From: Reyranella sp.
GTDB taxonomy: Bacteria; Pseudomonadota; Alphaproteobacteria; Reyranellales; Reyranellaceae
Direction: 5' to 3'
Assembly: GCF_004297405.1 (NCBI RefSeq)
Contig: NZ_SCVC01000031.1
Coordinates: 62,001-126,000, forward strand
DNA length: 64,000 nucleotides
Part shown: piece by piece, positions 11,155 through 19,684 of the stretch
How the letters are laid out: the number at the start of each line of letters is the position of its first letter
Position numbering within the stretch: position 1 is the stretch's first letter
Notes under the pieces: model-generated
The model's database searches: none
What the model saw: the letters and a program-made list of their open reading frames with translations, nothing else
What the model was told of the DNA's origin: nothing
Position numbers and translations under genes: made by a program

Positions 11155-13014
11155 TCACTTCTTCTCCCCGCGTTGCAGGGCGCGATCCTTGGCCTCGTCG
11201 ATCCACCAGGTGTCGAAGGCCACGGGCGCGTACTTCGCGCTCTTGGCCGGGCGACCGAAGCGGTTCCAGTAGGCGACATAGGCGGTGTTGCTGTGCCAGT
11301 TGGGCACGACGAAGTGACTCCATAGCAGGACACGGTCGAGTGCCCGCGTGACGTTGATCAGGCTCTCCCGGTCGGGAGCGGCGATCAGGGTCTCGATGAG
11401 TTGGTCGATCGCGGCATCCTTGATGCCGATCGTGTTGCGGCCGCCTTTGTTGTCGGCCGCCTTGGAGCCCCAGAAGTCGCGCTGCTCGTTGCCCGGCGAC
11501 AGCGACTGGCCGAAGCCCTCGACCATCATGTCGTAATCGTATTCGTCCTCACGACGCTTGAACTGCGCCGTGTCGACCGTGCGCACGTTCATGTCGATGC
11601 CGATGCGCTCCAGGTTCTGCTTGTAGGGCAGCGAGACGCGCTCGAAGCTGGCATCGTTCAGCAGCATTTCGAAGGCGAGCTTCTTGCCCGTCTTCGTCTC
11701 GGTCATCTTGCCGTCCTTGATCTCCCAGCCGGCCTCCTTGAGCAGAGCCAGGGCGCGGCGTGCGAGGTCGCGGACATTGCCGGTGCCGTCCGACTCCGGC
11801 AGCTTGAATTCCTTGGTGAAGACCTCGTCGGGGATCTTGCCGCGGAACGGCTCGAGATATTTGAGCTCGGCGGGCGTCGGCAAGCCCGACGAGGCAAGTT
11901 CGGAGTTGCCGAAGAACGAGATGTTCCGTTTGTACATCCCGTAGAACAGGTTCTTGTTGGACCAGGCGAAATCGAACATCGTGGAGATCGCCTCGCGCAC
12001 GCGCCGGTCCTTGAAGAAGTCGCGCCGGGTGTTGAAGGCGAAGCACTGCATACCGGTCGGCAGTTCGTGCGGGATTTCGGCGCGCTGGATGCGCCCGTCG
12101 CGCACCGCCGGAATGTCATAGGCGGTCGCCCAGTTGCGTGCGATGTTCTCCTGGCGCAGGTCGAGGTCGCCGGCCTTGAAGGCTTCGAACTGCACCGTGA
12201 CGTCGCGATAGTATTCGTAGCGGATGACCTCGAAGTTGTTGCGGCCCTTGTTCATCCAAAGGTCCTTGGCCCACCAATCGTCGACGCGGCGATAGGCGAT
12301 CGAACGGCCGACGTCGAAGGAATCGACCTTATAGGGGCCGCTGCCCAGCGGCACTTCGAGCGAGACCTTCTCGAAGTCGCGGCTGGCCCACCATTTCGAG
12401 GGAAGGATCGGAAGCTGGCCGAGGATCAGCGGCAGCTCCTTGTTGCTGCTGTCGCGGAAGGAGAACAGCACCTTGCGGTCGCCGACTTTCTCCGCCTTGA
12501 CCACGTCGTGATAGTAGAGGCCGTAGATCGGCGTGCCCTTGGTCTTCAGAATGTCGAGGGAGAAGATCACGTCCTCGACGGTGATCGGGCTGCCGTCGTG
12601 GAAGCGGGCCTGCGGGCGCAAGTTGAAGGCCACCCAGGAGCGATCCTCCGGCCATTCGATCGTTTCGGCGATCAGCCCGTACTCGGTCGAGGCCTCGTCG
12701 CGCGAATTCCAGCACAAGGTGTCCCAGATCGCCGTGATGCCGGCGGCGGGAACGCTCTTCACGATGAAGGGATGCAGCGAATCGAAGGTGCCGCGGGCGC
12801 CGAGCCGGACGCTGCCGCCTGCGGGCGCGTTCGGATTGAGATAATCCGGTGGCCCGGCATCGGCTTTGTACTTCGGTTCGCCATGCATGGCGAAACCATG
12901 ATTGACGTGAACTTTGCCCTGGGCCTGAGGCGACGTCTGGGCTAGCAGAATGGCCGGCGCGCCGACCCAGAGGGCCGCGCTGCCCATCAGTACGCTGCGC
13001 CGTTTGATCGCCAT
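11155..13014 (-). CDS. yejA: YejA-like extracellular peptide-binding protein
   Basis: SBP_bac_5 oligopeptide-binding lipid-free receptor, 619 aa. It has a signal peptide (MAIKRRSVLMGSAALWVGAP..., cleavage near LLA-QT). The GSVRLGARGTFDSLHPF segment and the later WVAFNLRPQARFHDG block are typical of this family. ATG 13014 is chosen because GGGGAG lies 7-8 nt upstream; an in-frame ATG at 13047 lacks this. First gene of yejABEF, so it should deliver peptides to YejBEF. Confidence 0.93.
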   Translation of the reverse strand: MAIKRRSVLMGSAALWVGAPAILLAQTSPQAQGKVHVNHGFAMHGEPKYKADAGPPDYLNPNAPAGGSVRLGARGTFDSLHPFIVKSVPAAGITAIWDTLCWNSRDEASTEYGLIAETIEWPEDRSWVAFNLRPQARFHDGSPITVEDVIFSLDILKTKGTPIYGLYYHDVVKAEKVGDRKVLFSFRDSSNKELPLILGQLPILPSKWWASRDFEKVSLEVPLGSGPYKVDSFDVGRSIAYRRVDDWWAKDLWMNKGRNNFEVIRYEYYRDVTVQFEAFKAGDLDLRQENIARNWATAYDIPAVRDGRIQRAEIPHELPTGMQCFAFNTRRDFFKDRRVREAISTMFDFAWSNKNLFYGMYKRNISFFGNSELASSGLPTPAELKYLEPFRGKIPDEVFTKEFKLPESDGTGNVRDLARRALALLKEAGWEIKDGKMTETKTGKKLAFEMLLNDASFERVSLPYKQNLERIGIDMNVRTVDTAQFKRREDEYDYDMMVEGFGQSLSPGNEQRDFWGSKAADNKGGRNTIGIKDAAIDQLIETLIAAPDRESLINVTRALDRVLLWSHFVVPNWHSNTAYVAYWNRFGRPAKSAKYAPVAFDTWWIDEAKDRALQRGEKK

Positions 13015-13103
13015 GCGGTGAGCTCCCCGTAACGAGCCTTGTTTCACTTCATATATAGCGTGCCCGAGTTGGGCGGCACTATGGCCGGCGGGTTACATCG
13101 CTG

Positions 13104-14075
13104 TCAGCCATCGCCCTTGATGCCCGCGTCCTTCACCAGCTTGCCGTAGCGGGCATAATCTGCCCTCCACATGGTCAAAATGTCTGCCGGTGAACGCGGC
13201 GTAGGCACTTCGCAGCCGGCCCGGGTCAGACGGCCCTGGGTGTCGCTGCTCTGCAAGGCCTTCATCGCCGACGCGTGCAGGCGATCGACGATGGCGGCCG
13301 GCGTGCCGGTCCGCACCGAGATCACGTACCAGCTCATCACCTGGGCGTCGGCGAAGCCTGCCTCGGCGAAGGTCGGGACATCGGGCAGGGTGGGCAGACG
13401 CTTGTCGGCCAGGACGGCGAGCGCGCGAAGCTTGCCCGACATGACATGCTGAAGGGCGAGCGGGCCGGGCAGCAGGCCGACCTGGAGACGTCCTTCGAGC
13501 AGATCGGTCATTCCCGGCGGGATGCCGCGATAGGGCACCGAGATCATGTCGAACTTGTACTGGTTCTTCAGCAGCTCGGCCGAGAGATGGATCGACGAGC
13601 CGTTACCAGGGTTGAGGTAGTTCAGCTTTCCCGGATTGGCTTTGCCGTACTCGACCAGATCTTTCAGTGTTCTGATCGGCAGCTCTGGATTGACGACCGC
13701 CACCGACGTGGCGATCGCGACCAGGGCGACGGGCTGGAAGTCCGTGAGCGCATCGTAGGGCACGGGCTGCAGGTGCGGCACGACGACATGGGAGAGCGTC
13801 GCCATCAGCCAGGTGTACCCATCGGCCGGCGCCTGCGGGATCATGGCCGTCGCGAGTGTGGAGTTGCCGCCCGGCTTTGGTTCGACGACGACCGGCTGGC
13901 CGAGATCGGCCTGCATGGGATCGGCCAGCGATCGGCTCACGATGTCGACGATGCCACCGACGGGATAGGGCACCAGGAACCGGCTGGGCTTGCTCGGCCA
14001 AGCCTGTGCGCCAACGGGCGCTGCGGCCAATGCCATGGCAGCAGTCAGCGCCGTACGTCGTGTCAGTTCCTTCAT
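13104..14075 (-). CDS. TctC/Bug-type periplasmic substrate-binding receptor
   Basis: Receptor of 323 aa with signal peptide (MKELTRRTALTAAMALAAAP, cleavage near GAQA-W). The mature start WPSKPSRFLVPYPVGGIVDIVSR is the standard TctC opening. ATG 14075 is preceded by GGGAGT. It is divergent from the selenoprotein-CoA-transferase unit at 14187, which suggests it may bind that pathway's carboxylate substrate. This is inference; no TctAB permease genes are present. Confidence 0.92.
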   Translation of the reverse strand: MKELTRRTALTAAMALAAAPVGAQAWPSKPSRFLVPYPVGGIVDIVSRSLADPMQADLGQPVVVEPKPGGNSTLATAMIPQAPADGYTWLMATLSHVVVPHLQPVPYDALTDFQPVALVAIATSVAVVNPELPIRTLKDLVEYGKANPGKLNYLNPGNGSSIHLSAELLKNQYKFDMISVPYRGIPPGMTDLLEGRLQVGLLPGPLALQHVMSGKLRALAVLADKRLPTLPDVPTFAEAGFADAQVMSWYVISVRTGTPAAIVDRLHASAMKALQSSDTQGRLTRAGCEVPTPRSPADILTMWRADYARYGKLVKDAGIKGDG

Positions 14076-14186: not shown

Positions 14187-15113
14187 ATGTCTGACACGAT
14201 GGATTTCGCGCCGACTTTCGACGTGCCGCTCGAGTATATGAGGCGGACGCGTGAGTATTACCTCGCGCTGGGTTACGACAACCCTTACCGCTGGGCACAC
14301 TATGTCGATGCCCCTTTTCAGCCGCTGAAGAAGCCGCTGAAGGACAGCACCCTGGCGCTGATCACGACGGCTGCTCCCTATCAACCCGACAAGGGTGATC
14401 AGGGGCCTGGCGCTCTCTACAACGCCGGCGCCAAGTTCTACAGCGTCTACTCTGGCGATACATCGGCCGACCACGACACGCGCATCTCCCATATCGGCTA
14501 CGACCGCAAGCATACGACAGCGACCGACAGCAACACTTGGTTTCCGCTGCCGTTGATGCGCGAGTTTGCAAATCAGGGACGCTTCAAGCTGGCATCGCGC
14601 TTTCATGGCGCGCCGACAAATCGCAGCCAGCGCGTGACTCTCGAAACCGATGCGCCGGAGATTCTGGCGCGCTGCCGGCAGGACGCGGTCGATGCCGCAC
14701 TGCTTGTCCCTACTTGACCCGTCTGCCACCAGACCGTGAGTCTGGTCGCTCGATATCTCGAAAGGAACGGCATCCCCACGATCGTAATGGGGGCGGCGAA
14801 GGACATCGTCGAATACGCCGGTGTGCCGCGCTTCCTGTTCAGCGACTTTCCGCTCGGCAATTCCTGCGGCAAGCCGCACGAGCCGGATACACAGCGTTTC
14901 ACGCTCGATCTTTCGTTGAAGGTGCTGGAATCCGCCATCGGTCCCAGGACCACGGTGCAGTCGCCGCTGCGCTGGACCGATGATGGCGACTGGAAGAACG
15001 ACTACAACAATATTGAGCGCATGAGCCCCGAAGAAGTCGCCAAGCGTCGGGCGGAGTTCGACAAGGTCAAGCAGGTTGCGCTCGGTCAGCGTCAGAAGGC
15101 CGGCGTCGCCTGA
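14187..15113 (+). CDS. GrdB/PrdB-like selenoprotein with in-frame UGA (predicted Sec177)
   Basis: One 308-residue protein is encoded if the TGA at 14715-14717 is read as selenocysteine. The part before it ends DAALLVPT and the part after continues PVCHQTVSLVARYLE, so the product has U177-P-V-C180, a redox UxxC motif. The family is that of selenoprotein B of glycine/betaine/sarcosine reductase and D-proline reductase, where Sec or Cys occupies this type of position. A SECIS-like hairpin follows at once (14725-14749). The ATG at 14187 has AAGG very close, and ATG 14199 is an alternative start. The CoA-transferase gene begins 13 nt downstream, with its GAGGAT overlapping this stop, so the full-length frame fits an operon. 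Alternatives are a nonsense mutation or sequencing error. In the known reductases such proteins cleave C-N bonds through a selenol; the substrate here is unknown, and no GrdA/GrdE/PrdA partner is visible. Confidence 0.82.
14725..14749 (+). promoter_or_regulatory. bacterial SECIS-like stem-loop directly after the in-frame UGA
   Basis: A perfect 7-bp stem, ACCAGAC (14728-14734) with GTCTGGT (14740-14746), closes the 5-nt loop CGTGA. It is extended by two further G-C/C-G pairs beyond a C-C mismatch. The loop begins 17 nt after the TGA and has G at its second position. This agrees with the known bacterial SECIS pattern (short stem, small apical loop with an early G, loop about 16-37 nt from UGA). 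It would recruit SelB-Sec-tRNA. Confidence 0.75.
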
Positions 15114-15126
15114 GGATCTCTTTGTC

Positions 15127-16320
15127 ATGAGTAAGCCGTTCGCGGGCATCAAGGTTCTCGACTTCACGCGCGTGCTGGCGGGGCCCTACAGCTCCTACCA
15201 GCTCGCCTTGCTTGGCGCCGACGTGATCAAGGTCGAATCGCTCGAAGGCGACGACATGCGCTTCGGCAGCCGTGCCAACGATTGGGAAAAGCGCGGGCTG
15301 GCCGCTCCCTGGGTGGCGGTGAACGCCGGCAAGCGTTCGATCACACTCGATCTCAAGAAGCCCAAGGCCATCGAGATCATCAAGCGGCTCGCCGCCACGT
15401 CCGACGTGGTGGTTGAGAATTTCCGCCCCGGCGTGATGGACAAGCTCGGCATCGGCTACGAGACGCTGAAGGCGATCAATCCGAAGCTGATCTATTGTGC
15501 CGTGTCGGGCTTCGGTCAGATCGGACCCGACGCCAAGACGGCAGCCTTCGACGGCATGATTCAGGCCATGTCGGGCCTGATGTCGATCACCGGCTTCGAG
15601 AACAACGGTCCGACGCGTGTGGGCTTTGCCGGCGCCGATGTCATGTCGGGCGCCACCGCGGCGCTGGGTATCGCCTCGGCGCTTTTCCAGCGCACCCACA
15701 CCGGCAAGGGCCAGCTCGTCGACGTCGCGATGATCGACGCGGTGATGGGCTATCTCGCCCAGCAGTTCACCGAGCATCTGATGACCGGCCGCGTCCATGG
15801 CCAGGCCGCCAATCTCTCGGTGACGCGCAAGCCCACGGGCAATCTCTTCAAGACCAAGGACGGCTGGATCGTGCTCGCGGTCATGACCGATCCGCAGTTC
15901 CAGCGGCTGATGAAGGTGCTGGGGCGTGAGGATGCGCTGGCCGATCCGCGTTTCGTCGACTGGCCGACGCGCATCCAGAACAACACGGCGCTGCACGAGA
16001 TCGTCGAAGCGGCGATGAAGACCGAGACCTCGGCAACCTGGGGCGAGCGCTTCGCCAAGAACGACATCCCAGCCGGCCGTGTGCTCAGCATTCCGGAAAC
16101 CGCACAGCTCGATCTTTTCAAGCATCGCACCGTGCTGCAGACGGTCGAGACCGAACATGGTCCGATCAAGGTCGTGGGCTCGGGCTTCCGCCTCGAACAT
16201 GGCGGCGGCTCCGTCGAGCGGCCACCGGCCACGCTCGGCCAGCACACCGACGAAGTGTTGAAGGAAGCCGGCTATTCGTCGGCGGAGATCGCCGAGATTC
16301 GCAGCAGCAAGGTCGCCTGA
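15127..16320 (+). CDS. class III CoA-transferase (CaiB/BaiF, formyl-CoA transferase-like)
   Basis: CoA-transferase of 397 aa that would move CoA between carboxylic acids. The N-terminus FAGIKVLDFTRVLAGPYSS is typical of the family. The catalytic aspartate is Asp171 in GFAGADVMSG, aligning with Asp169 of formyl-CoA transferase. KRSITLDLKKP and VVENFRPGVMDKLG are the usual conserved blocks. ATG 15127 has GAGGAT upstream; a longer frame start at 15076 lies inside the selenoprotein gene. It is co-directional and only 13 nt from the selenoprotein gene, implying a common pathway. The specific acid is unknown. Confidence 0.93.
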   Translation: MSKPFAGIKVLDFTRVLAGPYSSYQLALLGADVIKVESLEGDDMRFGSRANDWEKRGLAAPWVAVNAGKRSITLDLKKPKAIEIIKRLAATSDVVVENFRPGVMDKLGIGYETLKAINPKLIYCAVSGFGQIGPDAKTAAFDGMIQAMSGLMSITGFENNGPTRVGFAGADVMSGATAALGIASALFQRTHTGKGQLVDVAMIDAVMGYLAQQFTEHLMTGRVHGQAANLSVTRKPTGNLFKTKDGWIVLAVMTDPQFQRLMKVLGREDALADPRFVDWPTRIQNNTALHEIVEAAMKTETSATWGERFAKNDIPAGRVLSIPETAQLDLFKHRTVLQTVETEHGPIKVVGSGFRLEHGGGSVERPPATLGQHTDEVLKEAGYSSAEIAEIRSSKVA

Positions 16321-17602: not shown

Positions 17603-17694
17603 TCCGCGAGCGATACCATCCGAACATGACCGATTTGCTGGACTGGCGTTTATCTTTGCTTCCTCTCAACGACCTCGCGCCTTATTCTTCCGCT

Positions 17695-19684
<1,990 letters not shown>

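Follow-up and report, generated by a model that had tools for sequence, protein, structure and literature searches.

The window, by which we mean the whole stretch of 64,000 nucleotides that was analysed, belongs to a Reyranella genome that is 98.8% complete. The nearest named relative is R. massiliensis 521, with 97% identity at the selenoprotein. We take the host to be an alphaproteobacterium of soil and water with an aerobic life style. On the forward strand, an open reading frame whose sole interruption is an in-frame TGA runs to a terminal stop (also TGA) at 15111-15113, and the ATG of a CoA-transferase gene at 15127 is separated from this stop by 13 nucleotides, see Table 1. The preliminary description of the locus as a selenoprotein gene and a CoA-transferase gene had the reading frame, the stop and the start right. 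It also placed a ribosome site over the stop and a TctC gene divergent from 14075; both are confirmed, as GAGGA spans the stop and the TctC gene has its ATG at 14075. Promoter and terminator scans at the locus gave nothing, neither above nor below chance. Further downstream, a TPP riboswitch (69.6 bits) is found at 17690-17814 of the window, upstream of a thiC-like gene at 17864.

Table 1. Features of the selenoprotein/CoA-transferase locus, given in positions of the window.
Feature	Position	Strand	Remarks
PrdB/GrdB-related selenoprotein gene	14187..15113	+	308 aa with predicted Sec177; TIGR04483 84 bits, PF07355 23.5 bits
In-frame UGA, codon 177	14715..14717	+	motif TUPVCHQT; NCPVCHQT in Cys forms
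SECIS-like hairpin ACCAGAC-CGTGA-GTCTGGT	14728..14746	+	stem from 11 nt 3' of the UGA; GU in the apical loop
GAGGA, ribosome-site-like	15112..15116	+	overlaps the selenoprotein stop; from sequence
Family III (CaiB/BaiF) CoA-transferase	15127..16320	+	397 aa; PF02515 396.5 bits, residues 6-374
Asp142 codon of the CoA-transferase	15550..15552	+	matches the conserved D in the family III YD/FD-Q-SGL motif; expected catalytic Asp
Orphan TctC binding protein, divergent	13104..14075	-	PF03401 202 bits; lineage-limited neighbour, probably outside the unit
Oligopeptide-type ABC binding protein (SBP_bac_5)	11155..13047	-	first gene of an ABC operon; often a syntenic neighbour in Reyranella

Under the standard code translation stops at the TGA, and this is all that speaks for a sequencing error or a decaying gene. 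We found TGA at this single position in nearly all of about 60 orthologues of the same genus (82-97% identity), and an in-frame TGA is also kept in paralogues down to about 32% identity. In six genomes of the genus TGC or TGT replaces the TGA in the same locus (NCPVCHQT). Starting 11 nt past the UGA there is a hairpin stem, in which six inner pairs close a CGTG(A/G) loop. Of the distinct Sec genes, 50 out of 50 have the full set of six pairs. Compensatory changes from G-C to A-T occur in seven of the Sec genes and from C-G to T-A in six, and the two most distant Sec genes preserve the pairing with four altered pairs. Among the Cys genes, 0 out of 26 keep all six pairs; a consensus fold was also computed. 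The fold energy of the hairpin by itself is not significant (z -1.4), therefore the case for a SECIS element rests on the covariation and on the loss of the pairs in the Cys forms.

In 53 orthologues, the third codon position takes a share of 0.71 of the changes before the TGA and 0.67 after it, and this similarity indicates that purifying selection continues past the TGA. The genome also contains selA (559 bits), selB (460 bits) and a tRNA-Sec (75 bits) on contig C44, adjoining a formate dehydrogenase-N operon and fdhE in the order fdhN-fdhE-selA-selB-tRNA-Sec. The same TGA in dozens of genomes, the covariation of the hairpin and the selection downstream refute a sequencing error or a decaying gene, to which we give practically no weight. 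The earlier claim of a genuine selenoprotein is borne out by the covariation, its loss in the Cys forms, the presence of selA, selB and tRNA-Sec, and the occurrence of Sec and Cys in one locus. On this comparative evidence, the UGA of 14187-15113 is predicted to encode selenocysteine.

Across 41 homologues with 32-97% identity, U/C177, P178, C180, H181 and Q182 are invariant. The same holds for R189, E192, D206, R215, D220, P222-L223-G224, W36, Y34 and others. The AlphaFold2 model of the selenoprotein, made from an alignment that left out two plasmid-record proteins, is an alpha/beta protein with a pLDDT of 89.8. In the model, Sec177 is located at the start of a helix (178-193) that follows a strand (170-174). 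The fold search with Foldseek found no close solved structure (best E 0.047), and single-sequence and profile searches of the solved structures found no relative. The best VIA-align result, a match to LacI-type periplasmic-binding-protein folds, covers 150 residues and has a Z of 8.4. This match may reflect only the common Rossmann-like arrangement, and it says nothing on function.

The best named family for the selenoprotein is PrdB, with 84.2 bits for TIGR04483 at a cut-off of 300. The GrdB model TIGR01918 gives 36 bits at a cut-off of 65.45, while PF07355 (23.5 bits) is barely over the Pfam cut-off of 22. The PF07355 match covers residues 44-176, i.e. it stops immediately before the Sec, which is part of the reason why the first genome search with this model missed the gene. 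By these scores, the protein belongs to a branch of its own within the PrdB/GrdB superfamily and is not strictly a PrdB or a GrdB. Residues 43-250 can be aligned to residues 19-221 of PrdB, the identity to two clostridial PrdBs is 28-29%, and the Sec/Cys CxxC-type centre is at the same place in both proteins. However, the Reyranella protein is about 70 residues longer, with extra N- and C-terminal parts, and its centre is UPVCHQT, whereas PrdB has a CGTCHRS-type centre. With GrdB (PF07355, TIGR01918) it shares the superfamily, the matches are weak, and the GrdB models have about 430 residues compared with 308. Two plasmid-borne Cys-form relatives carry the NCBI name "glycine/sarcosine/betaine reductase selenoprotein B family protein".

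The classical partners are missing. Glycine, sarcosine and betaine reductases need GrdE, GrdA and GrdC, and the preliminary description noted that neither GrdA, GrdE nor PrdA was present. This is true for the entire genome and not just for the window. The initial genome searches with PF07355 and PF09338 gave no control match, and for PF09338 and PF04723 control records were then included. In these searches, PF09338 (GrdE/PrdA) has no match in the genome but finds both clostridial control records, and PF04723 (GrdA) has no match but finds the Peptoclostridium control record. PrdA is thus absent from an alphaproteobacterial host that carries a PrdB-like protein. A true D-proline or glycine-type reductase, with its pyruvoyl subunit encoded elsewhere, would explain why PrdB is the best named family. 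This reading is largely refuted by a score far under the PrdB cut-off and by the lack of PF09338 and PF04723 proteins in a nearly complete genome with working controls, and we regard it as very unlikely. The genome may still hold an activator without similarity to PF09338.

To describe the neighbourhood in the relatives, we used 55 Reyranella-type loci, all from different genome records and reaching far enough downstream. An orthologous CoA-transferase lies directly next to the selenoprotein gene in 52 of these. Of the three exceptions, L112 is due to a gap in the scaffold, and an apparent gene fusion at L049/L112 was rejected because of a run of N in the scaffold. The pair recurs in other lineages: Acetobacteraceae and eight genomes of a Bradyrhizobium-like genus, which belongs to the same class, have it in the Cys form, and two Rhodospirillaceae MAGs have it in the Sec form. 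For 15 pairs from Acetobacteraceae, Rhodospirillaceae and related MAGs, the intergenic gap ranges from -4 to +11 nt, and in many of these pairs outside Reyranellaceae stop and start overlap. In most of the Bradyrhizobium-like genomes the gap is about 36-40 nt. The genes seen to flank the pair vary from lineage to lineage. The two-gene unit proposed in the preliminary description is therefore supported by the very check suggested there, as it recurs in relatives and among them in carriers of the Cys form. The pair is old and conserved, and it looks like a two-gene operon and a functional unit held by selection.

Some relatives have a selenoprotein-family gene with no adjoining CoA-transferase, namely, at 68% identity, L046-L050 except L049, at 86% L053/L131, and the Cys form L042/L129. 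It follows that the step may not strictly need the transferase, or that the transferase is encoded elsewhere. In L042, the CoA-transferase is gone from between the Cys-form gene and thiC, and palindromic repeats of the GAGGGACC...GGTCCCTC type are found instead. Another alphaproteobacterial Cys form that has no adjoining CoA-transferase (L222) has an AMP-forming acyl-CoA ligase 65 nt upstream on the same strand. As a single case, this fits the same theme as the pairing with a CoA-transferase. In this region (L222:4898-10999) the Cys-form gene is flanked by the ligase on one side and by a UPF0261 gene and a PEP-hydrolase-like gene on the other, and all of these genes have the same orientation.

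The PF02515 match covers the CoA-transferase along its whole length and places it in family III, and D142 aligns with the solved members of the family in the FD-Q-SGL motif. It shares the fold family and the conserved Asp with the succinate-glutarate (NF052585), oxalate/formyl-CoA (Frc, YfdE) and succinyl-CoA:mesaconate transferases, but it scores below each of their equivalog cut-offs. In fact it is under every NCBIfam equivalog cut-off (for NF052585, 288 against 750 bits), hence its donor and acceptor acids cannot be assigned to any characterised substrate class. The genome contains 38 matches to the enzyme overall. In a tree of 33 CoA-transferases adjacent to the selenoprotein gene and 29 of the genome's own paralogues, the 33 form one clade with a support of 100, separate from the paralogues. 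The paralogues are at most 41% identical to the enzyme, compared with 48-55% for distant CoA-transferases from the conserved pair. From the tree and the identities, the enzyme is judged to be a dedicated, orthologous partner of the selenoprotein.

The TctC gene shows a different pattern. Of the 53 Reyranella-type loci that extend far enough upstream, 21 have the orthologous TctC as divergent neighbour, 11 another TctC and 12 an oligopeptide binding protein, while 9 have none of these, i.e. about 40% of the loci have an oligopeptide ABC binding protein or something else. TctC does not adjoin the pair in Acetobacteraceae, Rhodospirillaceae or the Bradyrhizobium-like genus. No TctA or TctB lies alongside TctC at the locus, where the flanks are the selenoprotein gene and the SBP_bac_5/ABC operon. 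The genome has about 109 TctC genes, and 17 of its 38 CoA-transferases are within 2.5 kb of one, compared with 4.2 expected. Although TctC is co-located with CoA-transferases above chance, its variability in Reyranella, its limitation to this lineage and its high copy number make it only a weak hint of an acid substrate, and it does not appear to be part of the unit. The preliminary description had proposed an imported carboxylate that is activated with CoA. The CoA-linked step is a reasonable inference from the dedicated orthologous CoA-transferase, but the use of TctC as evidence for import was overstated.

Among the other neighbours of family members, DyP peroxidase, pantoate ligase, DinB, FtsW, rhodanese, polyprenyl synthetase and glpD were set aside as ordinary chromosomal genes, since different lineages do not share them. 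Amidohydrolases adjoin the pair in one Rhodospirillaceae lineage and in one Acidisphaera; they were rejected as a substrate clue, since they belong to different families.

Our main reading, with a probability of roughly 0.5, is that the locus is a two-gene operon in which a selenoprotein from a PrdA-less branch of the PrdB/GrdB superfamily and its own CoA-transferase would both work on one carboxylic acid. A link of the pair to an acid is likely. That the two enzymes act in series on the acid and its CoA thioester, in a shared acid/CoA pathway, has in our view slightly better than even odds. In the usual, established view, the Sec selenolate of GrdB or PrdB attacks an alpha-carbon that is activated by a carbonyl, the pyruvoyl group of GrdE or PrdA (discussed in PMC10838667). 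As no GrdE/PrdA subunit is found, the substrate must be activated in some other way, for which the simplest candidate is a CoA thioester that the adjacent transferase would make. A precedent is the farACEB operon with the fluoroacetate reductase FarB, which acts on monofluoroacetate and indicates that GrdB-type proteins can handle other alpha-substituted acids and substrates without an amino group (PMC10838667). In such a mechanism, the CoA-transferase would load the acid with CoA, and the thioester would take over from the pyruvoyl Schiff base and open the alpha-carbon to the selenolate of Sec177 (Cys in other lineages). Sec177 would displace a leaving group, which could be an amine, a halide or sulfur. 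The resulting C-Se or selenide-sulfide intermediate would be resolved by Cys180 and a general thiol reductant, and the reduced acyl-CoA would be released to central metabolism without an acyl phosphate. This thioester activation in place of the Schiff base is speculative, and we would bet against it in its detail. Slightly less doubtful, and still tentative, is the broader proposal that the widespread and mostly proteobacterial "PrdB" branch is a Sec- or Cys-dependent acyl-CoA thioester enzyme and not a proline reductase, with a dedicated CoA-transferase in the place of the pyruvoyl activator.

The steps could also run in the reverse order, with the selenoprotein reductively cleaving a free substrate and the CoA-transferase activating the acid product. 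The conserved pair and the single CoA-transferase clade agree equally well with this order, and in GrdB, PrdB and FarB the substrate of the Sec step is a free acid or amino acid (PMC10838667). However, with the PF09338 activators and the acceptor GrdA absent, something else must make the substrate reactive, and we hold the reverse order to be possible at perhaps one chance in a few. A more distant reading is a general thiol-redox or repair enzyme, e.g. a reductase for disulfides or adducts of proteins or small molecules, that shares an operon with the CoA-transferase only for regulation. The UxxC, which in the AlphaFold2 model follows a strand and opens a helix, a weak Thioredoxin_3 match (E 0.097) and conserved paralogues with unrelated neighbours are in line with such an enzyme. 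No thioredoxin fold is among the structural matches listed, which from such weak searches is only a hint. The conservation extends over all 300 residues of the protein, where numerous polar and aromatic positions do not vary, and one orthologous CoA-transferase goes along with it in four families, so that we find a thiol-redox enzyme improbable. Compared with these alternatives, a joint action of both proteins on an acid or its CoA ester remains our preferred reading.

Related proteins have been reported before under another name. The Sargasso Sea survey has 42 Sec UxxC "PrdB" genes (PMC1088965) and the GOS survey 235 Sec and 110 Cys UxxC "PrdB" genes (PMC2398784). From these descriptions the marine proteins resemble the Reyranella branch, being abundant UxxC proteins in Sec and Cys forms (PMC1088965, PMC2398784), and they probably include it. 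Both surveys name the protein proline reductase, and in the passages found neither the lack of PrdA nor a partnership with a CoA-transferase comes up. The MAG L142 has the Sec form together with the CoA-transferase. We found no paper that links a PrdB/GrdB-type protein to a CoA-transferase in a search that had most subscription journals and all preprints outside its scope. The superfamily is therefore already known under doubtful names ("PrdB", "selenoprotein B family"), while what appears undescribed is the operon with its dedicated transferase and without the classical partners.

A partnerless selenoprotein with a dedicated CoA-transferase, in several families and in both Sec and Cys versions, suggests that an acid or its CoA ester undergoes a reaction not yet described. 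Proteins of this branch are probably among the more abundant marine selenoproteins, and they are annotated as proline or glycine reductases. The conserved operon gives a concrete handle on the real reaction: the system is small and can be expressed, close relatives supply it in natural Sec and Cys versions, and cultured, named species such as Reyranella massiliensis and Reyranella soli have it. It would show how glycine/proline-reductase chemistry is adapted to life without a pyruvoyl partner.

The Cys forms in Reyranella seem to have spread by recombination, judging from the alignments and trees. In G035 (L039/L132), DNA identity to the window is about 92-95% on the CoA-transferase side and 65-82% at window positions 14680-14960, and the divergence extends across much of the gene. 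Over window positions 14300-15000, L039/L132 thus has the appearance of an in-situ replacement of a Sec by a Cys allele inside the gene, and L135 and L136 are similar. L135 and L136 carry Cys alleles in different lineages and are 85% identical in the core of the selenoprotein gene and 79% in the CoA-transferase. Between L135 and its nearest Sec relative the pattern is opposite, with 78% and 87%. Five of the six Reyranella Cys forms group together in the selenoprotein tree (support 95), whereas in the CoA-transferase tree three of those loci are placed with different Sec neighbours. Four of the Cys-form genomes (G019, G035, G045, G065) retain a paralogue with an in-frame TGA and all six retain selB, hence the Cys forms did not arise because the Sec machinery was lost.

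The Reyranella genome of the window has a second selenoprotein of the superfamily (contig C21, 26720-27523; L059), with 49% identity, an in-frame TGA and no directly adjoining CoA-transferase. Members of the paralogue clade (44-50% identity) have neighbours other than a CoA-transferase. In L063, L064 and L066, apparent operons place the gene after a luciferase-like monooxygenase and a nitroreductase, and a molybdopterin-binding subunit is encoded downstream of it; the setting is that of a different pathway. Two distant TGA relatives with about 32-33% identity (L072:7998-8621 and L073:8004-8774) have the motif UPACTRA and a GC-rich SECIS-like hairpin. Finally, the family occurs twice in tandem in L075:7902-9648 (G026, contig C62), and both copies have an in-frame TGA.
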